Of a DNA stretch of 42,309 nt, positions 5,229 through 15,388 are shown piece after piece (position 1 is the first letter of the stretch; each line of letters begins with the position of its first letter). The DNA is from Burkholderiaceae bacterium (lineage in GTDB: Bacteria > Pseudomonadota > Gammaproteobacteria > Burkholderiales > Burkholderiaceae_C): the NCBI GenBank assembly GCA_031253955.1, contig JAIRVJ010000013.1:1-42309 (forward strand), written 5' to 3'. The notes under the pieces were generated by a model. That model worked only from the letters and a program-made list of their open reading frames with translations. It searched no databases and was not told where the DNA came from. Both the position numbers and the translations under genes were made by a program.

Positions 5229-6644
5229 TCAAAACTCCGGCTCGTCCAGTTGCGCCAGCAGCGCGCGCCGCTGGGCGGGCTGCACGCCGCGCACTTGGGC
5301 TGCTACCCAATGCAGCCGGGCAGAACTCACGCCGCCTTCGGCGCGCCAGCGCGCCGCTTCCATTTGCGGGTTGTGCAGCATGGCCGCCAGCGTGACGGCC
5401 TGCCGGGGCGTGAGGCGCCGGGCGCTCACACCGAAGTAGTGGCGCGCGGCGGCTTGCGCGCCGCAGATGGGGCGGCCTTGCGCATCTATACCCCAAGGCG
5501 CGTTGGCCAGATAAAGTTGCAGGATGCGGCCTTTGCCGAGCGCGGCTTCGGCATCCAGCGCGTACAGCAGTTCCCGCGCCTTGCGCTCCAGTTGGCGCTC
5601 CCCGCCCGTAACCATGAGCTTGGCCAGTTGCTGGCTCAACGTGCTGGCGCCGCGGCGGATGGCGCCGGCTTGCTGGTTGGCTTGCAGCGCGGCGGCCAGT
5701 TCTTCCGGGTCGAAGCCGGTGTGCTCGTAAAAACGCTGGTCTTCCGCCGCGAGCACGGCGCGCGCCAGCCAGTGGCGCGCCGGCAGCGGCGGCGTGCGCC
5801 CGCAGGCGCTTTGCGCCAACGCCCAGTCTTGCGTGCCCAGACCGCTGACGGTCAGCCCTTCGATGCGCGGCGCGATGCGCCAGTCCGATGTTCCCTCGCG
5901 CGGCGGCAAGGGCAATTCCACGCGCAGCGCCAGCGTGCCTTCGATTTGCGCGGCGGCCAGTTCCGGCAGACCGGGCGCGAGCAGCTCGAACCACTGGCGC
6001 GCGGGTGCGGCGGGCCAGTCGATCACCACACGCCAGCCGGGGCCGGCGCGCCGCGCCTGCCAGTGCGCGGTGAGCGCGGCCTCGTTTTGCGCAGCAGGGG
6101 AGCGTGGGGGCATCTTCTCGCCGCCGCCGGGCCGCCCCAAGGCGGCGAGCGCCCCTGCGGGGGGCAGCGCACCATGCGCAGCAGGGGAACGTGGGGGCAT
6201 CATTTCCAGCCGCAGCGTGCCGTGCAGGCTTTGCGCGTCGCCGCGCGCCAGCGTGATCTGCGCCGCCGGCACGCGCAGACCTTCGGGCTGCCCCAGCGCA
6301 GGCGGCAGCGGCAACCGGCAGGGCTGGCAGCGCAGGGTGAGCGCGGGCGCATCCCCCGGCCCGCCGGCGCTGACCCAGCCCAGCGTGAGCGGCCCCAGGC
6401 GGCTGGGCACGGCGCGGCCCGCCAGCCGCTCGCCGATCCACGGCGTGGTCGCCAGCCACACCAGTTGCGGCACGCTGGCTTGCAGCTTGAACGGGCCGCG
6501 CCCGATTTCGGCGGCCCAGTCGCCGGGCGGCGGCGCAAGGGCGGCGCGCAAGACGATCCACAGCACGCCCGGCAACGCGATCAGGGTCAGCAGCACCCAG
6601 CCGAGGGGCAGCAGGCGGCGCGCAAGGGTGGGGCCGGGTTTCAT
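5229..6644 (-). CDS. Monofunctional GT51 peptidoglycan glycosyltransferase, exosortase-linked
   Basis: Polymerises lipid II into glycan strands at the periplasmic face of the inner membrane. The 471-residue protein has an N-terminal membrane anchor (about 8-35), a poorly conserved middle (about 40-280) and a GT51 domain (about 290-460). The domain shows VLAAEDQRFYEHTGFD with the catalytic Glu, RRGASTLSQQLAK, ERKARELLYALDAE and LQLYLANAPWG. No transpeptidase domain follows. The ATG at 6644 overlaps the upstream stop (ATGA), so translation is likely coupled. Residues about 148-186 contain a doubled peptide, MPPRSPAA, encoded by a dispersed repeat (6088-6201). The family is clear. A role tied to the neighbouring exosortase is inferred from the coupling only. 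Confidence 0.85.
   Translation of the reverse strand: MKPGPTLARRLLPLGWVLLTLIALPGVLWIVLRAALAPPPGDWAAEIGRGPFKLQASVPQLVWLATTPWIGERLAGRAVPSRLGPLTLGWVSAGGPGDAPALTLRCQPCRLPLPPALGQPEGLRVPAAQITLARGDAQSLHGTLRLEMMPPRSPAAHGALPPAGALAALGRPGGGEKMPPRSPAAQNEAALTAHWQARRAGPGWRVVIDWPAAPARQWFELLAPGLPELAAAQIEGTLALRVELPLPPREGTSDWRIAPRIEGLTVSGLGTQDWALAQSACGRTPPLPARHWLARAVLAAEDQRFYEHTGFDPEELAAALQANQQAGAIRRGASTLSQQLAKLMVTGGERQLERKARELLYALDAEAALGKGRILQLYLANAPWGIDAQGRPICGAQAAARHYFGVSARRLTPRQAVTLAAMLHNPQMEAARWRAEGGVSSARLHWVAAQVRGVQPAQRRALLAQLDEPEF
6088..6201. repeat. Repeat inside the GT51 coding region with 27-bp direct repeats
   Basis: 27-mers at 6088-6114 and 6175-6201 differ at one base and lie 87 bp (29 codons) apart, so the peptide MPPRSPAA occurs twice in frame. 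The DNA between is a GC-rich hairpin-like unit. It lies outside the catalytic domain. Confidence 0.8.
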
Positions 6645-7204
6645 ACTGGATCGGCTCCCAAGGGGCTGGTGGTGGTTACGGCCCGCCACGGGCCTTGTGA
6701 GCGGCCCGTGGCCGCCGCCCAGTACCAGGCGGAAGTGTCGGCAAAGTGCTGGCCGCGGACGTCTTCGATCTGCTCGCACACGCGCAGCGCGGTCTCGCCT
6801 TTGCGGGCGGTGAAGCACCGCTGGAGCGCCCTTGGGTCCGGCAACGCCGCTTCCAGCCGCTCGCCCTCGATGCGGTAGCCCAGCGCGCGGTAGCAGTCGG
6901 CCGCCGGGTGCAACATGCGGGTGGGCGCGGTCACGTCGCGCAGCACGACGATCCGGCGGCCATCGGTCAGGCGCGCGATGCGGCCCGGAAAACGCTCGGC
7001 AAAGCGTTGCTCCACCGCCGACAGCGCCAGCGGCCGCACCGCCGCGCCCTGCCAGCGCCGCGGCAATTCGGCGGCTGGGGCGCCAGCGGCGGCCTGCGCT
7101 CCCGCATCCGTTTTGCCGTGCGCGCCCCACAGCGCGCAGATGAGCATGGCCGCACCGAACAGGGTTTTGCCCAGCACGCGATTTTGGAAAGTATTGGAGA
7201 TCAT
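6641..7204 (-). CDS. EpsI-like exosortase-associated exported protein
   Basis: A 187-residue protein with a signal peptide or N-terminal anchor (hydrophobic about 12-28) and no other membrane segment, so it is probably periplasmic. The centre has HPAADCYRALGYRIEG, similar in layout to the H-P-x-x-C-Y-x-A-x-G-Y/W block of EpsI proteins (DUF3485), which accompany exosortases. Further cysteines occur in LQRCF and RVCEQ, and it ends with a Trp-containing segment, FADTSAWYWAA. It overlaps the exosortase stop and the GT51 start by ATGA at both ends, so the three genes are tightly coupled. The exact family is uncertain because the match is by motif layout, not overall similarity. Confidence 0.6.
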   Translation of the reverse strand: MISNTFQNRVLGKTLFGAAMLICALWGAHGKTDAGAQAAAGAPAAELPRRWQGAAVRPLALSAVEQRFAERFPGRIARLTDGRRIVVLRDVTAPTRMLHPAADCYRALGYRIEGERLEAALPDPRALQRCFTARKGETALRVCEQIEDVRGQHFADTSAWYWAAATGRSQGPWRAVTTTSPLGADPV

Positions 7205-8211
7205 TTTTCGACTCCAATGCCCTTCTTCGTCATTCCAGCGAGGGCGGGAATCCATTGCGACGTTGGTTTCTCAAGTGACGTTTTTGGATTCCCGCCTTCG
7301 CGGGAATGACGAAAGGAGGTTTTGTCCGCCCAGCCCATCAGCGCCGCGATGCCGCCGCACACCGCCGCCAGCGCCAGCAGGCCGATGATTTGATGCGCCC
7401 ATTCGCCGCCGCCGCGCCCGCCAGCTTGCAGCGCCACCAGTGCGGTGTTGCGCAGCACGTTGCCGGCCAGCACCATCAGGCCCGCCAGCGGCAGGCGCTG
7501 AAGAAAGGCGCGGTCGGCGCGGCCCTTGAGCAGCGCCGCCGCGCAAGCGGTGAAGTAGCCGGCCCAGGCCATCTGCACGCCGGAGCAGGGCGCATCGACA
7601 ATGATTAGTTGCCCATCGACCAGCAGGCTCGCGCCTTCGCGCTGCACCGCAAACCCCACGGCCAGCAGCCAGCGGCTGGCTTCGGCGGTAAGCACGCGCA
7701 GCGGGTAGCCCGCGTAGAACTGGAGCGAGGCCAGCAGCGGCAGCGCCAGCACCGCCAGCCCCAGCACCGGCGCGGCGGCAATCGCATGACTAGGGGCCGG
7801 CCACAGCACGCCATCGCGCACGCGCATCGCGCCGCGCCGCGCGTCGGGCAGAAAGGCCAGCAGGCCGCAGGCCCAAGCCACAATCGCCAGCAAGCTAGCC
7901 GCCAGCGGCGCGGCTGGCCCGCGCAGCAGCGTGGCCCCAAAAGTGCCGGCCAGCGCCGCCGCCAGCCAGGACAAGCGCGGGGCGCAGCGCAACTGCTGGC
8001 GCAGCGACCACAACAGCACGCCCAGCGCGGCCAGCGCGAGCAGGCCCAGCGGGTCGTCGGAACCGTCGGCCACGCGCGCGGCCATCCAGCGCCATGCAGG
8101 CCATAGCGCGGCGGTCTGCAACCCGATCCACAGCCAGGCCGGAGCGCGGTCCAGCCGAATGGCCCACGGCAGCAAGCCGGGGCGCAACAAGGGATAAGCG
8201 GCGGTTTTCAT
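7201..8211 (-). CDS. Exosortase (PEP-CTERM transpeptidase-like)
   Basis: Polytopic inner-membrane cysteine protease/transpeptidase expected to cut PEP-CTERM proteins at their C-terminal signal. The 336-residue protein has about eight hydrophobic segments and the three catalytic residues in order: Cys about 209 in DAPCSGVQM, Arg about 251 in GNVLRNTAL and His about 273 in EWAHQII. The last 40 or so residues (SFRHSREGGNP onward, from about 300) are the translation of a dispersed repeat at 7228-7311, so the original C-terminus was probably near 296 and the stop was displaced. The only likely substrate in view is the VIT/VWA protein encoded just upstream. I cannot assign the exosortase subfamily. 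Confidence 0.9.
   Translation of the reverse strand: MKTAAYPLLRPGLLPWAIRLDRAPAWLWIGLQTAALWPAWRWMAARVADGSDDPLGLLALAALGVLLWSLRQQLRCAPRLSWLAAALAGTFGATLLRGPAAPLAASLLAIVAWACGLLAFLPDARRGAMRVRDGVLWPAPSHAIAAAPVLGLAVLALPLLASLQFYAGYPLRVLTAEASRWLLAVGFAVQREGASLLVDGQLIIVDAPCSGVQMAWAGYFTACAAALLKGRADRAFLQRLPLAGLMVLAGNVLRNTALVALQAGGRGGGEWAHQIIGLLALAAVCGGIAALMGWADKTSFRHSREGGNPKTSLEKPTSQWIPALAGMTKKGIGVEK
7228..7311. repeat. CGTCATTCC-type inverted repeat inside the exosortase 3' end
   Basis: An 84-bp copy of the family at 1620-1711, read in frame as the exosortase tail. The ATGA junction with the next gene lies just beyond it. Confidence 0.9.
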
Positions 8212-8230
8212 GACGGTTTCCTTTTTCTCT

Positions 8231-8350
8231 CGTCATTCCCGCGCAGTTCCCGCCTGCGCGGGAATGACGGGGAATCCATGCACGTCACCTCAGGCAGCGG
8301 CCCACGAACGAAAACCAGAGCGTCTGGGAATCCCCTGCCATTCCCGCCCA
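8231..8350. repeat. Repeat copy plus decayed repeat at the VIT gene 3' end
   Basis: A short perfect copy (8231-8269) is followed by a degraded one. The stretch GGGAATCCATGCACGTCACC resembles GGGAATCCATGAGCGTCATC in the copy at 37745-37826. The stop codon of the VIT/VWA gene (8285-8287) lies inside the decayed copy. Confidence 0.65.
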
Positions 8351-10507
8351 GCGCCGTGGGCTGCCATGCAATCCCGGCGTTTTGAGACCACGCCTGAACA
8401 AGCTGGGATTCCACTTCGTTCCATCCCAGCCTACAACTCTGCCAACCCGCGCGCGCAAGAAGAAAAAGAGCACCGCCAGCACCACCAGCATGGCGGCCCA
8501 GGTTGCAGGCTCCGGCGTGCTGGCCACTTGCGCGCCGAGCGCGCTGGCATCGCCCACGGCGCGGTCGGTCACGCCTTCGGGCAGGGGGCTGGGCTGGTCG
8601 GCGCGGGCGTTTTGGCCGCCGGGGTTGCGCACCACCTGATCGACGGCGATAAAGCTCGTGTATTGCGTGAGCAGCCCGTAGTCCAGCCCCAGCTTGGTGA
8701 TGGCCGCCTTTTGTGCGCCGCCGCCGGTGAGCGCCTCCTGGTCGCTCAGGGTGGTGATGCGCTGGCGCGCCCACAGGTAGCGCAGCGCCGGGCCGCCCCG
8801 CGCGGCATCAAGGGCGGCCAGATCCACGGACAGCGCCTGCCGGTACGCTCCGCCGGCGGCGCGGCCTTCGACGATCAGGCGCGGCGGCTGGCCTTGGCCT
8901 TCCGCCGGGGCGCGCCATTTGCCGAACACGATCACCGGGCGCTCGGCCAGCACGTCGGGCAGTTGCGGCGGCTCCACGTCGTAAACCTCCAGCCCCTCCA
9001 GGCGCGCCTGCACGCCGGTGAGCACGGGCGCGGCGATCATCTTGCGGAAACGCTCGGCCTGCGCCCTGGCCTCGTGCGGACGGGTGACGATGAACGGCTC
9101 GCCCATGCCGGCGCGCGCCAGCCCTTCCATCAAGTGCCGGTTCACCGACGAGCCGATGCCGAAGGCAAACAGGTTGGCCGCGCCCAAATTGCGGCGCACC
9201 AGCGCGAAAGCATCGTCTTCCACCGTCACGTACCCGTCGGTGATGACCACCACCGTGCGCGACAGATCGGGCGTGCGCGGCTCGGCGAAGGCGCGGCGCA
9301 GCGCGGGCACCAGCTCGGTGCCGCCGCTGCCGCCGGCCTGGTCGATGGTGCGTATGGCCGCGTCGATGTTGGCGCGCGTGGCCGGCGCCGAATGGGGCGA
9401 AAGAATCCGGCTGCTGCCGGAAAACAGCAGCACGTTGAAGCGGTCGCTGGGGCGCAAGCCTTCCAGCAAATCGCGCATCAGCGCCTTGGAGGTGTCCAGC
9501 GGAAAGCCGTGCATGCTGCCGGAAATATCGACCACGAAGATGTAGTCGCGCGGCGCGATCTGCGCCTGCGCCACCGCGCGCGGCGGCTGCACCATCGCCA
9601 GAAAAAAGTTTTCCTTCTCGCCGCGCTCCAGCAGCACGCCGGACGCAATGGCTTCGCCCGCCAGCCGCCAGTTGAGGATGAAGTCGCGGTTGTTGGCGTT
9701 GCCCGCGCCGCGCGCCGCATCCGGCGCCAGTTGCACGCTGGCGCGGCGGCTGGTCTCGGCATCCTGCTGCGTGTCGATGGCATGGCTGGGCGAGACCAGC
9801 TCGCGGATCGCCAGCGGGCTGTCGATCTCCACCTGCATACTGAAGGCCGCCGGGTTGGGCTGGCCCTCATGCAGCACCGGCTGCGCCGGGAAAGCGCCAC
9901 CGCCTGGAGCAGGCTGGCCGCTGGCCGTTGAATCTGGCGCGTTCTCGCGCGTGCCTGCGTAGCGCGGACCCACCACGGTGGGAAAGACGAACTGGTACTG
10001 CCCGTCTTCGGGCGCCAGCAATTCGTTGTAGCGCAACTCCACATCCACCTCGTCGCCCGGCAGGATGTTGGCCACATTCATCTGGAACACGTTGGGGCGG
10101 TGCTGCTCCAGCAGGGCGGCGGTCTTGCCCTCGCGCCTGGCGGCGTCGTATTCGATTTTTGCGGCGTGCTTTTCGCGGATCTGCGCCACCACGCGCCGGT
10201 TGCCCACGCGCACCACCAAGCCGCCCACCGCCGCGCGCGTGCTGCCGGGAAAGATGTAGCGCGCCTCAATCGGCGCGCCGCCTTCGTTGCGGTAGCGCTG
10301 CGTCACCGTCACATCGGCGATCACGCCGGAAATTTTTGCGCGCACATCGGTGCGCTTGAGCGGCAGCGCCTCGACGCCCGGCTCGGCCCCTCGCACGAAA
10401 AAGTAGGGGCTTTCGGCCTTCCGGCTTTCGCCCGGGTCATCCTGCGCCAGCGCCGGCAACCCGGCCAGCGCACCCAGCAGCGCCGTAAAAAAGAATCGAG
10501 CAAACAT
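8285..10507 (-). CDS. VIT and VWA domain surface protein with PEP-CTERM-like tail, exosortase target
   Basis: A 740-residue exported protein. Order: signal peptide (about 1-20, ending LPALAQ), VIT domain (about 35-165, with RYIFPGSTRAAV and FQMNVANILPGDEV), a beta-rich middle, and a VWA domain (about 320-500) with a complete metal site (DISGS about 327, GGTEL, ITDGY about 420). The PEP-CTERM-like sorting signal is STPEPATW from about 663, then one membrane segment and arginines (LRARVGR). The ATG at 10507 follows GGAGG and begins the signal peptide. Longer in-frame starts do not. About 50 residues follow the arginines, unusual for this signal and apparently repeat-derived. It lies directly upstream of the exosortase. 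VIT/VWA proteins are also the targets of the proteobacterial dedicated sortase system, so it is probably anchored or secreted at the outer surface. Confidence 0.88.
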   Translation of the reverse strand: MFARFFFTALLGALAGLPALAQDDPGESRKAESPYFFVRGAEPGVEALPLKRTDVRAKISGVIADVTVTQRYRNEGGAPIEARYIFPGSTRAAVGGLVVRVGNRRVVAQIREKHAAKIEYDAARREGKTAALLEQHRPNVFQMNVANILPGDEVDVELRYNELLAPEDGQYQFVFPTVVGPRYAGTRENAPDSTASGQPAPGGGAFPAQPVLHEGQPNPAAFSMQVEIDSPLAIRELVSPSHAIDTQQDAETSRRASVQLAPDAARGAGNANNRDFILNWRLAGEAIASGVLLERGEKENFFLAMVQPPRAVAQAQIAPRDYIFVVDISGSMHGFPLDTSKALMRDLLEGLRPSDRFNVLLFSGSSRILSPHSAPATRANIDAAIRTIDQAGGSGGTELVPALRRAFAEPRTPDLSRTVVVITDGYVTVEDDAFALVRRNLGAANLFAFGIGSSVNRHLMEGLARAGMGEPFIVTRPHEARAQAERFRKMIAAPVLTGVQARLEGLEVYDVEPPQLPDVLAERPVIVFGKWRAPAEGQGQPPRLIVEGRAAGGAYRQALSVDLAALDAARGGPALRYLWARQRITTLSDQEALTGGGAQKAAITKLGLDYGLLTQYTSFIAVDQVVRNPGGQNARADQPSPLPEGVTDRAVGDASALGAQVASTPEPATWAAMLVVLAVLFFFLRARVGRVVGWDGTKWNPSLFRRGLKTPGLHGSPRRWAGMAGDSQTLWFSFVGRCLR

Positions 10508-10640
10508 CGGTTTTCCTCCACACAAATCGCGGCAGGCGCCATGCCTGTTCCGCATGGCGCTACTGTGGAAACCGAATGAGCGGCCCGTATGAAGCCTGCG
10601 TGCGCCCGCATGAAAAGCGCACATCGGGCGTGAGGGTGGG

Positions 10641-10656
10641 ATGAAAATTGTGTGAA
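10641..10656 (-). promoter_or_regulatory. Candidate CreB-binding tag upstream of the VIT/VWA gene
   Basis: On the minus strand it reads TTCAC-6 bp-TTCAT, one base from the published CreB direct-repeat tag TTCAC-N6-TTCAC. It lies about 134 bp before the start at 10507, in the spacer between creC and the VIT/VWA gene. It is a single short site and unproven. Confidence 0.5.
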
Positions 10657-10741
10657 GCGTTAGCTACAAAATAAATAGCTTATAGCCTAGGTTATACCTT
10701 GGTTTGCGCTCTATTTTGCTTGAAGTAACATACCTCAGCAT

Positions 10742-10935
10742 CGTCATTCCCGCGCAGGCGGGAACGCAGTGCTTCTTTCAGCGCCGTGCGCCCCCACCCC
10801 AGCCCTCCCCCGCACGCGGGGGAGGGAGTGAAGAAAACCAGGATTCGGAGTTGCAAAAATCCAACCCCCGCTTGCAGGAGAGGGAGTGCATCTTGCTCCT
10901 TCCCCCTCAAACGGGAGAGGGAGAAAACCACGCTC
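10742..10935. repeat. Repeat patchwork upstream of the VIT/VWA gene
   Basis: Starts with a half copy of the CGTCATTCCCGCG repeat, then about 65 bp nearly identical to 4977-5040, then several CTCCCCCGCACGCGGGGGAG and CTCCTTCCCCCTC units. No gene lies in the 436-bp spacer 10508-10943. Confidence 0.75.
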
Positions 10936-10943
10936 AACCTTCT

Positions 10944-12473
10944 TCACCGCCGCAGCGCGGGCAGGTGCAGTTCGGCGAGGACGCCGCGCTGTTCATAGAG
11001 AAGGCCGGGCAAGGCGTTTTCCGTGGCGGAGAGTGGGGTGTCTTCTTTGGGCGCGGCATTGTCGAGCGTGACGCTGCCCTGGTGCAGCTTGGCGATTTCG
11101 CGCACGAAGGCCAAGCCCAGGCCGGTGCTTTTCTTTTGGGTGCCGGGGCGCGCAAGGGAGAAGAAACGCTCGAACGCCTTGCCGCGCGCATAGGGCGGCA
11201 GGCCCGCACCGTGGTCGCGCACGCGCACGACGGCGATGCGGGCAGCGCGGTGCAGGCTCAGTTCGATGTCGGGCATGTCGGGCACGCCGCACGGCGCGGT
11301 GAAATCGACCGCGTTGTCGAGCAGGTTGCCGATGGCGCGGCGCAGCAGGAAGGGATCTCCTTCGACGGCTACTTCTTCTTCAATGCGCACGGCCACCTGC
11401 AAGCGCGGTGCCTTGGCGCGCGCGCCGGCGGCCAGTTCGTGCAGCATGGGGGCCAGCGGCACGCGCTCCTGATGCTGCAACATGCGGCGGCTTTCGAGCG
11501 CGGAAAGTTCCAGCATTCGCTCCACGGTTTCTTGCATACGCTGCGTTTCGCTGGCGATGCTGGCGGCAAAGCGGCGGCGCGGCACGGGCTGCATGCTTTC
11601 TTCCTGCAACAGTTCCGCCGCGCCGCGGATGGCCGACAGGGGGCTTTTGAGTTCGTGCGTGAGTTGCTGCACGTAGTCTTGCACGTAGTTGCGCCCGGCG
11701 ATGGCGTCGCGCAGTTCGCGCTCGAGGGCGCGCCACTGCGCGCGCAGCGCGCGCCAGGCGCGGCGCGGGCTGAAGTGGCGCCGCCCGGCGGCGTCGCGCT
11801 GCCAAGCGGTGGCCAGGCCGGCGAGCAGGTCGCTGGTCATGCCGAGCGGGCGGATCATGAGAAACGACAGCGCCAGGCCGAGCACGAGCACGGAAAGGGC
11901 GGACATCAGCCCGGCGTAAACGACGTTGGCCCGCGCGTCGGAGACGAACTGGCCGAAGCTGCGCACCGGCTTGCCTAAGGTGAGCACGCCCACGATCCGG
12001 CCCTGCCAGCGGATGGGCACGCCCACGTACATGACGGAGGAATCGGGGTCTTGCGCGAGGTCGCGCGTGGTGCGCGCGCCGTATTCGCCGGCCAGCGCGC
12101 GGCTCACATCGCGCCAGCGCGAATAGTCCTGCCCCAGCGCGCGGCCCGTGGCGTCGTACACCACCACGCCGCTGGCGTTGGTGACGTAGGCGCGCAATTC
12201 AATGCGCGTTTTGTGCAACTGGTAGATCTGGGCGGAAAACGGGCGCGCGTAGGCGTCGCGGAAGATGGCGGCGATGCGATCCAGGGGCAACGCGCCGTCT
12301 TCCACGTCCTGCTCGATCACGCTGGCCATGAGCTGCGCGGTTTCGACCAGCGATTCTTCGGCGGACTCGCGGTAGCGCGGGTCGAGGCCGGCCAGCATGC
12401 TGTAGAGCAGCGCGCCCATGCCCAGGGCATAGACCAGCAGCAGGGCCAGGAAGATACGCAGACGCCGGCTCAT
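10944..12473 (-). CDS. creC: Sensor histidine kinase CreC
   Basis: Inner-membrane sensor that phosphorylates CreB. The 509-residue protein has a membrane segment at about 5-25, a periplasmic sensor region, a second segment at about 185-205, then HisKA and HATPase domains. Clear CreC signatures are GQDYSRW and DPDSSVMYV in the sensor part, LTHELKSPLSAIRGAAELL with the phospho-accepting His, GNLLDNAVDFT, and STGLGLAFVREIAKLHQG. In other bacteria CreBC responds to carbon/fermentation state or to beta-lactam and cell-wall stress. In enterobacteria creD follows. Here its place is taken by the VIT/VWA-exosortase genes. The start at 12473 is the natural one for the N-terminal membrane segment. Confidence 0.93.
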   Translation of the reverse strand: MSRRLRIFLALLLVYALGMGALLYSMLAGLDPRYRESAEESLVETAQLMASVIEQDVEDGALPLDRIAAIFRDAYARPFSAQIYQLHKTRIELRAYVTNASGVVVYDATGRALGQDYSRWRDVSRALAGEYGARTTRDLAQDPDSSVMYVGVPIRWQGRIVGVLTLGKPVRSFGQFVSDARANVVYAGLMSALSVLVLGLALSFLMIRPLGMTSDLLAGLATAWQRDAAGRRHFSPRRAWRALRAQWRALERELRDAIAGRNYVQDYVQQLTHELKSPLSAIRGAAELLQEESMQPVPRRRFAASIASETQRMQETVERMLELSALESRRMLQHQERVPLAPMLHELAAGARAKAPRLQVAVRIEEEVAVEGDPFLLRRAIGNLLDNAVDFTAPCGVPDMPDIELSLHRAARIAVVRVRDHGAGLPPYARGKAFERFFSLARPGTQKKSTGLGLAFVREIAKLHQGSVTLDNAAPKEDTPLSATENALPGLLYEQRGVLAELHLPALRR

Positions 12474-12480
12474 GTTTACG

Positions 12481-12522
12481 TTTGGCGTTTGGTGTTTGGT
12501 GTTTGGTGTTGAGTGTTGAGCG
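12481..12522. repeat. Six tandem 7-bp units in the creB-creC spacer
   Basis: Units TTTGGCG, TTTGGTG (three times), TTGAGTG and TTGAGCG in a row, 8 bp from the creC start codon. They sit where the creC ribosome site should be, so copy-number change could alter creC translation. Confidence 0.8.
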
Positions 12523-12562
12523 TGTGAAGCGCCGGGTTTTCACGCTCAACGCCCGGCCTGAA

Positions 12563-13348
12563 TTACTCGCGCAGCGCGTAACCGATGCCGCGCAGGGTGC
12601 GGATCGGGTCTTCATCGGCGGCCACCGCGCGCAGCTTGGCGCGCAGGGTTTTGATGTGGGCATCGACGGTGCGGTCGAAGCTCGCGCCGGGATCGTCCCA
12701 CACCAGTTCCAGCAGCTCGTCGCGCGTGAACACGCGCCCCGGGCGCTGGATGAGCGCCGACAGCAGCCCGTATTCGTAGCGCGAAAGATCGAGCGCGCGG
12801 CCCCGGTAGCGGATCTGGCGGCGTTCGGCGTCGAGCCGGAAAGCGCCGTGCAATTCGCCGGACGGGTTGCCGGTTACTCCTTTTTCAGAAGCTGTATGTC
12901 CATACTGTGCTTGCGTTTGTGGCTGATTTTGTTCAGAATCAGCACTCAACCGGCTGCGGCGCAGAATGCCGCGCACGCGCGCCACCAGCTCGCGCGGGGA
13001 AAAGGGTTTGGCGATGTAGTCGTCGGCGCCCATTTCGAGGCCGACCACGCGGTCGATCTCGCCCGAGCGGGCGGTGAGGAACACCACGGGAACGGCCTTG
13101 CCGCCGGGCAGATCGCGCAGGCGGCGCAATAGCTCGAAGCCGTTCATGTCGGGCAGGCCGATGTCGAGAATCGCCAGCGCCGGGGGCGTGCGCGCGAAGC
13201 TTTCCAGGGCTTGCCTGGCGGCGCCGCAAACTTCAGGCGCGAAGCCGTCGGAGGCCAGCGCATAGTGAATGGTTTCGGCAATGCCGGCTTCGTCTTCCAC
13301 CACCAGAATGCGCGGCGGGTTTGGGGCGGCGGGCAAGGGAGCGGGCAT
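12563..13348 (-). CDS. creB: Response regulator CreB
   Basis: OmpR-type regulator partnered with CreC. The 261-residue protein has a receiver domain (about 13-128) with acidic VVEDE, phospho-Asp in LAILDIGLPDMNG, FLTARS, and Lys in ADDYIAKPFSPRE. After an unusually long polar linker (about 130-170, rich in Q, S and T) comes a winged-helix domain with LSRYEYGLLSALIQRPGRV and DRTVDAHIKTLRAKL, very close to known CreB. The ATG at 13348 follows an AAGAGAGA site. An upstream in-frame ATG adds residues translated from the repeat at 13363-13455. The gene precedes creC by 89 bp on the same strand. Confidence 0.93.
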   Translation of the reverse strand: MPAPLPAAPNPPRILVVEDEAGIAETIHYALASDGFAPEVCGAARQALESFARTPPALAILDIGLPDMNGFELLRRLRDLPGGKAVPVVFLTARSGEIDRVVGLEMGADDYIAKPFSPRELVARVRGILRRSRLSADSEQNQPQTQAQYGHTASEKGVTGNPSGELHGAFRLDAERRQIRYRGRALDLSRYEYGLLSALIQRPGRVFTRDELLELVWDDPGASFDRTVDAHIKTLRAKLRAVAADEDPIRTLRGIGYALRE

Positions 13349-13748: not shown

Positions 13749-14561
13749 TTACCTCCCGAACAGGCGCTTGAAGAAGCCCGGTTTTTCCGCGTCCACGAAG
13801 CGCAGCGGGCGCTCCTCGCCCAGAAAGCGCGCTACCACGTCCAGATACGACTCGGCCACCGCCGTGCCTTTCAGATGCACAGCAGGCAGACCTTGGTTGG
13901 AGGCTTGCAGCACATCTTCGCTTTCGGGAATCACGCCGATCAGGGAGATGCGCAAAATGTCCTGAATGTCGGTGAGGCTGAGCATCTGGCCGTCTTGCAC
14001 GCGGCTGGGGTTGTAGCGCGTGATGAGCAGGTGTTCCTTGACCGGATCGCCGCCTTGCTTGGCGCGTTTGGTCTTGCTGGCCAGCATGCCCAGAATGCGG
14101 TCGGAATCGCGCACGCTGGAGACTTCGGGGTTGGTGACCACCAGCGCCTGATCGGCATAGTGCATGGCCAGCAGCGCGCCGGTTTCGATGCCGGCGGGCG
14201 AATCGCACACGATGTAGGCAAAGCCCATGCCTTTGAGGTCATCCAGCACTTTCTCCACGCCTTCCTGCTTGAGCGCGTCTTTGTCTCGCGTCTGGCTGGC
14301 GGCCAGCACGAACAGGTTATCGCATTGTTTGTCCTTGATGAGCGCCTGGTGCAGATTGGCTTCGCCGTGGATCACGTTGATGAGGTCGTACACCACGCGG
14401 CGCTCGCAACCCATGATGAGGTCGAGGTTGCGCAAGCCCACGTCGAAATCGATCACGGCGGTTTTGTGGCCGGCCAGCGCCAGCCCCGAAGCGAAGGCGG
14501 CGCTGGTGGTGGTTTTACCCACGCCGCCTTTGCCGGAAGTCACGACAACGATTTCGGTCAT
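13749..14561 (-). CDS. minD: Septum site-determining ATPase MinD
   Basis: Membrane-binding ATPase that recruits MinC. It is 270 residues long, the family norm. The deviant Walker A motif SGKGGVGKTTTS has Lys11 and Lys16. Further motifs are AVIDFDVGLRNLDLIMG and CDSPAGIE. The C-terminal amphipathic membrane helix is FFKRLFGR. The start at 14561 was chosen because it places the P-loop at residue 11 after an AGGAAAGA site. A longer frame to 14600 adds unconserved residues. It sits between minC (35-bp gap) and minE. Confidence 0.96.
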   Translation of the reverse strand: MTEIVVVTSGKGGVGKTTTSAAFASGLALAGHKTAVIDFDVGLRNLDLIMGCERRVVYDLINVIHGEANLHQALIKDKQCDNLFVLAASQTRDKDALKQEGVEKVLDDLKGMGFAYIVCDSPAGIETGALLAMHYADQALVVTNPEVSSVRDSDRILGMLASKTKRAKQGGDPVKEHLLITRYNPSRVQDGQMLSLTDIQDILRISLIGVIPESEDVLQASNQGLPAVHLKGTAVAESYLDVVARFLGEERPLRFVDAEKPGFFKRLFGR

Positions 14562-14596
14562 TTGTGCAGGTCTTTCCTGAAACGGTGTATCGGTTT

Positions 14597-15388
14597 TCAA
14601 AGCGCGGTGACGACAAGTTTGCCGCCGCCTTCATGGCTGATCAGATGGACATGCGCGGGATGACGCCATATCTCCGGCGGCAACGGCGTTTCGGTGGTGC
14701 GGTAGACACCAGCGATGGCGATCAGCTCCGGCTGCATGTCCAGCGTGAAGATGCGCGCCGAAGTATCGCCGCGTGCGCCGGCAATGGCGCGCCCGCGCAA
14801 GGGCGCGTAAACGTGAATGTGACCATCGGCAATCACCTCGGCGCCAGGATTGACCATCGCCAGCACCACCAGATCGCGCCCGCGTGCATAGATTTGCTGG
14901 CCGGAGCGCACTGGGCGGTTCACCACCAGCGTGGTAAGCGGTTCTTGTGGCGCAGGAACGGATGGCACGAGCTGCGCGTTGACCTCGGCCTGAACCGGCG
15001 ATGCTTGCTCATTCAGTTGCTCAATAGGCGGTGCGTGACGCTTTGGTGAAACGAGTTCAGGCACAGCCGCCAAGCCCGCCTTGGCTGCCGCCGCAATTTG
15101 GCTCAGACTGCCGCCACAAATAGCGATAGGCGCCAGCTTGTACTTGCGCAGCAAGGGTAGCAGCGCTTTGAAGTCGATACGCGCATGGCCGTGCTCGGCC
15201 TGCAGCAGTGAGAGATCAATGAGCAACGGATCTTTGTCGAAAAAATCCGGGATATCGCCAAAGCGCGCTTCAAGCTCGGCCCGAAGCTGCTCCAGATTCG
15301 GCAGCTTGAGTAACAACGTCACCAACGGCAAATTGGCACTTTTGATCTCGAAGCTGGCAGGAGCCTTGGCAGCAAGGGTGACAGACAT
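14597..15388 (-). CDS. minC: Septum site-determining protein MinC
   Basis: FtsZ assembly inhibitor delivered to the membrane by MinD. The 263-residue protein has the N-terminal FtsZ-interacting domain (about 8-110) and the C-terminal beta-helix domain (about 150-255) with NRPVRSGQQIYARGRDLVVL, VNPGAEVIADGHIHVYAPLRG and ARIFTLDMQPELIAIAGVY. A proline/glutamine-rich linker joins them. The upstream leader holds a 10-bp perfect inverted repeat, GCGGCAGCGC (15420-15429 with 15462-15471), which may fold in the mRNA leader. It is the first gene of the min operon. Confidence 0.95.
   Translation of the reverse strand: MSVTLAAKAPASFEIKSANLPLVTLLLKLPNLEQLRAELEARFGDIPDFFDKDPLLIDLSLLQAEHGHARIDFKALLPLLRKYKLAPIAICGGSLSQIAAAAKAGLAAVPELVSPKRHAPPIEQLNEQASPVQAEVNAQLVPSVPAPQEPLTTLVVNRPVRSGQQIYARGRDLVVLAMVNPGAEVIADGHIHVYAPLRGRAIAGARGDTSARIFTLDMQPELIAIAGVYRTTETPLPPEIWRHPAHVHLISHEGGGKLVVTAL

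Follow-up and report, generated by a model that had tools for sequence, protein, structure and literature searches.

An exosortase Q cassette with a VIT/VWA protein and a GT51 glycosyltransferase, probably under CreBC control, in Ottowia and related Burkholderiaceae

Contig JAIRVJ010000013.1 of a Burkholderiaceae bacterium (assembly GCA_031253955.1), analyzed here as one stretch of 42,309 nucleotides (the window), carries six genes on its minus strand, all with open frames, for a CreB/CreC two-component system, a VIT/VWA protein, an exosortase, an EpsI-like protein and a glycosyltransferase of family GT51. The gene creB (12563–13348), encoding an OmpR-type response regulator, scored 307.5 bits with NF008296 (cut-off 273) and is followed by creC (10944–12473), whose product, a sensor histidine kinase, scored 499.9 bits with NF008312 (cut-off 356). 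Next come the genes for the VIT/VWA protein, a putative exosortase target (8285–10507; 114.6 bits with PF08487 and VWA families over cut-off), for the exosortase (7201–8211), for a membrane-anchored EpsI-like protein (6641–7204) and for a peptidoglycan glycosyltransferase of family GT51 that has an additional N-terminal domain (5229–6644; 139.5 bits with PF00912, cut-off 27). Reading of the sequence revealed ATGA overlaps between xrtQ, the exosortase gene, and epsI-like (7201–7204) and between epsI-like and gt51 (6641–6644). The arrangement of six genes on one strand with two such overlaps, as noticed in a preliminary description of this DNA, was thus verified by reading frames and profile scores. 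Because the identical four-gene order recurs in relatives, the gene set is more than a chance assembly, and the six-gene observation was confirmed as a real, conserved system.

The exosortase scored 376.8 bits with NF012182 (cut-off 270), and therefore an existing subfamily model covers this enzyme, a point on which the preliminary description had asked for a search against subfamily hidden Markov models; the subfamily is already known as exosortase Q (XrtQ). XrtQ was detected over cut-off in 61 of 399 genomes sampled from the family and in 5 of 399 sampled from the order, where the scans of the family genomes scored up to six or up to three first-look candidates per genome. The 15 named relatives include isolates of Ottowia and Variovorax and several metagenome-assembled genomes. 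Loci were taken as up to 9 kb on each side of the 60 other over-cut-off matches in the family, to which weaker matches and matches from outside the family were added. In 71 of the 78 profile-scanned loci (a count that excludes L129–L133) the genes VIT/VWA, xrtQ, epsI-like and gt51 were all present, and four of the seven incomplete loci (L053, L060, L087 and L115) end at a contig edge. Even L127 and L128, which are from other families and encode divergent XrtQ-like exosortases, keep all partners. L129 and L130 encode an XrtQ-like exosortase and an EpsI-like protein, with no VIT/VWA or GT51 match in the fetched stretch.

The Cys, Arg and His residues pointed out earlier in the exosortase correspond to C209, R254 and H273, which we take to be the catalytic residues; in an alignment of 74 proteins they are unchanged in 74, 73 and 73, respectively. 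Among the NCBIfam models the EpsI-like protein had a single, weak match, to exosortase T, of which only the C-terminal part was matched (42.8 bits, cut-off 250), and in 15 of the 78 loci the XrtQ and EpsI-like matches lie within one open frame, as they do in exosortase T. The EpsI family PF11984 (DUF3485) did not match the window protein and matched 1 of 52 members, at an E-value of 0.063. A predicted model of the EpsI-like protein with a predicted local distance difference test score (pLDDT) of 90.8 features a membrane helix and an alpha/beta domain. When solved structures were searched with a profile of the EpsI-like alignment, nothing matched up to an E-value of 1, and a fold search with the model gave nothing at 0.001 or better; an Eag-type chaperone fold was considered and set aside, the likeness being weak (best E-value 0.016, template modelling score 0.26, root-mean-square deviation 10.5). 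We infer that the EpsI-like protein works together with XrtQ.

The VIT/VWA protein bears STPEPATWAAMLVVLAVL, a PEP-CTERM tail composed of a PEP motif, a membrane helix and an Arg-rich end (8453–8518, minus strand; 21.1 bits with TIGR02595, cut-off 16), so that the tail recognized earlier by its PEPATW motif was borne out. In the relatives' loci, 74 of 78 VIT/VWA proteins have PEP within their final 60 residues. The source assembly (2.6 Mb, completeness estimate 96.85%) contains one exosortase match and one PEP-CTERM match over cut-off, the latter being the VIT/VWA protein itself, and five more PEP-CTERM matches, all under cut-off. The earlier proposal of a single target thus holds in the source assembly. 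It does not hold as a general rule: in the family sample, which has 64 XrtQ genomes, three of them known solely from sub-cut-off matches or fragments, a single exosortase match was found in 29, and where a second exosortase is present, as many as 34 PEP-CTERM matches occur in a genome. Among those 29 genomes, which were chosen by hand from the family counts and then recounted, 26 have no or one PEP-CTERM match and the other three have 7, 3 and 3 (completeness 76, 70 and 89%). These counts are approximate because the model is short and misses some clear VIT/VWA tails; its zeros are not true zeros, as some genomes with a tail that is clear by eye give no match, and the identity of the match as the VIT/VWA tail was checked in the source genome only.

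In the GT51 enzyme, E301 and E358, presumably the catalytic Glu pair of this family, are invariant in 59 sequences, as is a CxxC pair (C106, C109) in the N-terminal domain. Its predicted model (pLDDT 89.9) matches solved peptidoglycan glycosyltransferases, some of them with moenomycin or lipid II analogues, and TIGR02070, the model for monofunctional peptidoglycan transglycosylase, gave 127.4 bits, under the equivalog cut-off of 182.65. For the N-terminal domain neither a consistent Pfam family nor a convincing fold match was obtained, and an AsmA-like nature, an impression gained from sequence and strand pattern, was set aside as no fold match supported it. As regards the coupling to glycan synthesis suggested in the preliminary description, GT51 indicates peptidoglycan rather than exopolysaccharide.

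The cassette is linked to CreBC beyond the window. CreC was found in 63 of the 64 genomes with XrtQ in the family sample versus 98 of the 335 other genomes, a Fisher comparison that ignores relatedness, and it is also present outside the family in G279, G182, G387, G032 and G077. The exception is G496; a congener without XrtQ, G686, has no CreC over cut-off either. For 44 of the 61 over-cut-off XrtQ matches, creC lies on the same strand no more than 10.5 kb upstream; for the remaining matches it lies at 10.5–60 kb on the same strand (five), farther away or on the other strand (two), on another contig (nine, which may partly stem from broken assemblies) or is missing (one), the places for G000, G535, G617 and G474 being taken from the fetched loci. 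The co-occurrence survey thus shows linkage kept in relatives. The preliminary description had named many other PEP-CTERM proteins and an exopolysaccharide-linked exosortase in the genome, together with no conserved creBC linkage in relatives, as the outcome that would speak against it; what was found is a source assembly with one exosortase and one PEP-CTERM match over cut-off, and a creBC linkage that is conserved. Its suggestion that the exosortase genes had replaced creD was rejected: in the source assembly creD is retained on another contig, and in 19 of 71 loci it adjoins the VIT/VWA gene on the opposite strand, with one box for CreB in common.

Two papers give TTCAC-N6-TTCAC as the binding site of CreB (BlrA) in front of creD and further genes of the Cre regulon (PMC4689548; PMC3660660). 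In 66 of 71 loci from relatives, which represent 58 of 63 sequence clusters, an exact copy of this box stands 5' of the VIT/VWA gene, in each case on its coding strand, where the count covers loci with a complete upstream region of 460 bases and leaves shorter regions uncounted; L054 and L098, which look like one contig, are both within the 71 and are merged among the 63 clusters. On the opposite strand of the same upstream regions the exact box occurs in 0 of 71, and in random 460-base windows from the same loci it occurs in 2 of 3367. Outside the VIT/VWA upstream regions, 7 further exact boxes were detected in 1.23 Mb of loci. Of the five non-exact loci, four (L090, L120, L122 and L126) are one mismatch off and the fifth, L128, has two exact boxes just past the 460-base region; 13 loci have several overlapping boxes. 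Upstream of creD the exact box was present in 20 of 20 regions and upstream of creB in 0 of 43 relatives' regions (0 of 41 complete ones). This conservation of a predicted CreB box lends support to the earlier assignment of CreBC as the regulator. In the window, the probable box is the site TTCACACAATTTTCAT (10641–10656, minus strand), which lies 134 bases 5' of the VIT/VWA start codon and reads TTCAC-N6-TTCAT, with one mismatch. The source assembly has four exact boxes, one at the relocated creD. The other three are at G000:C61:13537, C71:25596 and C74:6301, and the C61 copy, as judged by eye, is a short way 5' of a frame resembling uvrC. L129 and L130 each have one exact box about 2.5 kb upstream.

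The locus resembles several known systems. NF012182 names the exosortase Q enzyme only, and in the open-licence literature searched no paper was found on exosortase Q, its partners or its control. The proteobacterial dedicated sortase system (target TIGR03788, kinase TIGR03785, regulator TIGR03787) likewise combines a VIT/VWA target with a sorting enzyme, a kinase and a regulator, but the window locus has an exosortase in place of the sortase, a PEP-CTERM tail, CreBC, and GT51 and EpsI-like proteins in addition. Membership of that system was rejected, as the window target, kinase and regulator scored 413.2, 87.8 and 136.9 bits with its models, all under the respective cut-offs of 551.65, 612.2 and 335.7; no sortase gene was met in the window beside the VIT/VWA target, the adjoining sorting enzyme being the exosortase. 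The earlier view of the locus as an exosortase analogue of the VIT/VWA sortase system is upheld as an analogy, based on the likeness in design. An exosortase T locus (NF033770), L145, the one locus over cut-off in 329 genomes, also combines a VIT/VWA protein, an exosortase with an attached EpsI-like part, and a CreB/CreC-like pair; in L145:4236–10468, minus strand, the CreB and CreC models are the best for the regulator (222.3 bits, cut-off 273) and the kinase (154.8 bits, cut-off 356), both under cut-off. It differs from the window in its exosortase, and within the 19.3 kb retrieved it has neither GT51 nor an exact copy of the box for CreB. The combination of VIT/VWA protein, sorting enzyme and two-component system may therefore be a recurring design, seen so far in few loci. 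With the Cre regulon (creD, cbrABC) the locus shares CreB and CreC over cut-off and, as seen in the relatives' loci, the box and its position upstream of the operon. A member of this regulon that is an exosortase operon and includes a peptidoglycan glycosyltransferase was not met in the open-licence literature. Some papers there pair exosortase with regulator and kinase terms; a link between CreBC and an exosortase was not found, nor was a relevant paper on exosortase with VIT or with a glycosyltransferase. Within that literature, neither control by CreB nor the partnership with GT51 appears to have been described.

The sequences document the gene content, the conservation of the operon, the tail, the active-site residues and the CreB box, and the co-occurrence with CreC. 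The interpretation that we consider likely is that of a dedicated exosortase system under the CreBC response to cell-wall stress: in Ottowia and relatives, a wall-stress switch appears to turn on a small set of genes for making, cutting and placing one envelope protein along with an enzyme of its own for building the wall. CreC would sense peptidoglycan or metabolic stress and CreB would bind TTCAC-N6-TTCAC and activate the operon VIT/VWA–xrtQ–epsI-like–gt51, and among these predicted steps the regulatory one is well supported by sequence. Published work links CreBC to wall stress: loss of penicillin-binding protein 4 function is its trigger in Pseudomonas aeruginosa and Aeromonas (PMC4689548), and in E. 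coli colicin M, a destroyer of lipid II, strongly induces creD and cbrABC (PMC3599342). The VIT/VWA protein would be exported and held in the inner membrane through its PEP-CTERM tail, where XrtQ, assisted by the EpsI-like protein, would cut it and hand it to an acceptor, whereby it would arrive at the envelope or the surface. Alongside, GT51 would polymerise lipid II and couple the placing of the protein to local wall synthesis or repair. Of the original interpretation, the exosortase analogue, the CreBC regulator and the linkage remain, and the replacement of creD and the single target as a general rule are given up.

Several observations weigh against a CreBC-run exosortase system. The sign of the control by CreB could differ, because in Stenotrophomonas maltophilia CreBC is reported to repress creD (PMC4689548). 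Five one-mismatch sites were seen in the window when 1.04 were expected by chance, and because such sites arise about once per window by chance, the window's own box proves nothing alone. The VIT/VWA frame of the window also continues for 50 residues after its tail. The XrtQ genome G496 (76% complete) has no CreC even after fuller scoring. G927, from outside the order, has a VIT/VWA protein and XrtQ, but neither an exact box nor creBC was met there within about 9 kb, although CreC is present in its genome. In L055, L106 and L126 gt51 is missing despite downstream sequence in hand. The absence of gt51 from these three loci, and from the fetched stretch of the exosortase T locus, would also suit an ordinary exosortase Q locus in which GT51 and the EpsI-like protein are merely co-transcribed, GT51 serving wall repair in general within the Cre response. 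Because CreBC answers wall damage in other bacteria (PMC4689548; PMC3599342), a wall enzyme in the Cre regulon makes sense alone. However, gt51 accompanies the cassette in 72 of the 78 loci, including those distant from creBC and the divergent L127 and L128, and the 15 loci mentioned above have XrtQ and the EpsI-like part as a fusion; we regard the ordinary locus as a possible but less favored explanation.

It is very improbable that the box serves creD or is a leftover of it and that the cassette stands beside creBCD by inherited order, outside CreB control. The shared box in the 19 loci where creD adjoins the VIT/VWA gene would fit such an arrangement, but 47 of the 52 loci in which creD is not a neighbour have the exact box, as do 11 of 13 loci with a complete region and no creC within 10.5 kb (the other two having one mismatch), and XrtQ is nearly restricted to CreC genomes. 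A different question is whether the window copy is itself decaying and may no longer work. This copy shows signs of disturbance: its VIT/VWA frame continues for 50 residues beyond the Arg-rich end of the tail, unlike most of the listed relatives' frames, which stop shortly after it, its box is weakened by one mismatch, short repeats such as TCATTCCCGC occur in and around the operon, and creD has moved away in the source genome. As all six frames are open and the catalytic residues of XrtQ and GT51 are retained, decay to the point of lost function is unlikely. Finally, a more specific form of the CreBC-run system would have XrtQ join the VIT/VWA protein to lipid II or to a nascent strand made by GT51, with the EpsI-like protein handing over the tail or the acceptor. 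We hold this to be improbable; if true, it would be a Gram-negative exosortase counterpart of the anchoring of proteins to the wall by sortases, switched on by CreBC upon damage.

To our knowledge, the acceptor to which bacterial exosortases attach their substrates is unsettled. With the cassette, this question comes down to a single enzyme, substrate, partner and lipid II polymerase under a single predictable switch, and its bearers include cultured Variovorax and Ottowia. If the control by CreB holds true, protein sorting would join a stress response that is known mainly for effects on the envelope and on beta-lactams.

Some further features of these loci were observed. Frames resembling minD and minC lie 5' of creB in the window (13749–15388, minus strand, read by eye), and a minD-like frame is also found 5' of creB in L092. 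At 14 places of the window between 1622 and 40176 there is a short repeat that includes TCATTCCCGC, on both strands and in some cases within or between the genes of the operon, and the C-terminal end of the exosortase seems to be supplied by such a repeat. Between creC and creD, L059 (2801–6709) and L074 (2618–5170) encode on the minus strand a bifunctional penicillin-binding protein with transglycosylase, OB and transpeptidase domains. Weak GT51 matches of a similar kind lie between creC and creD in other Variovorax-like loci.

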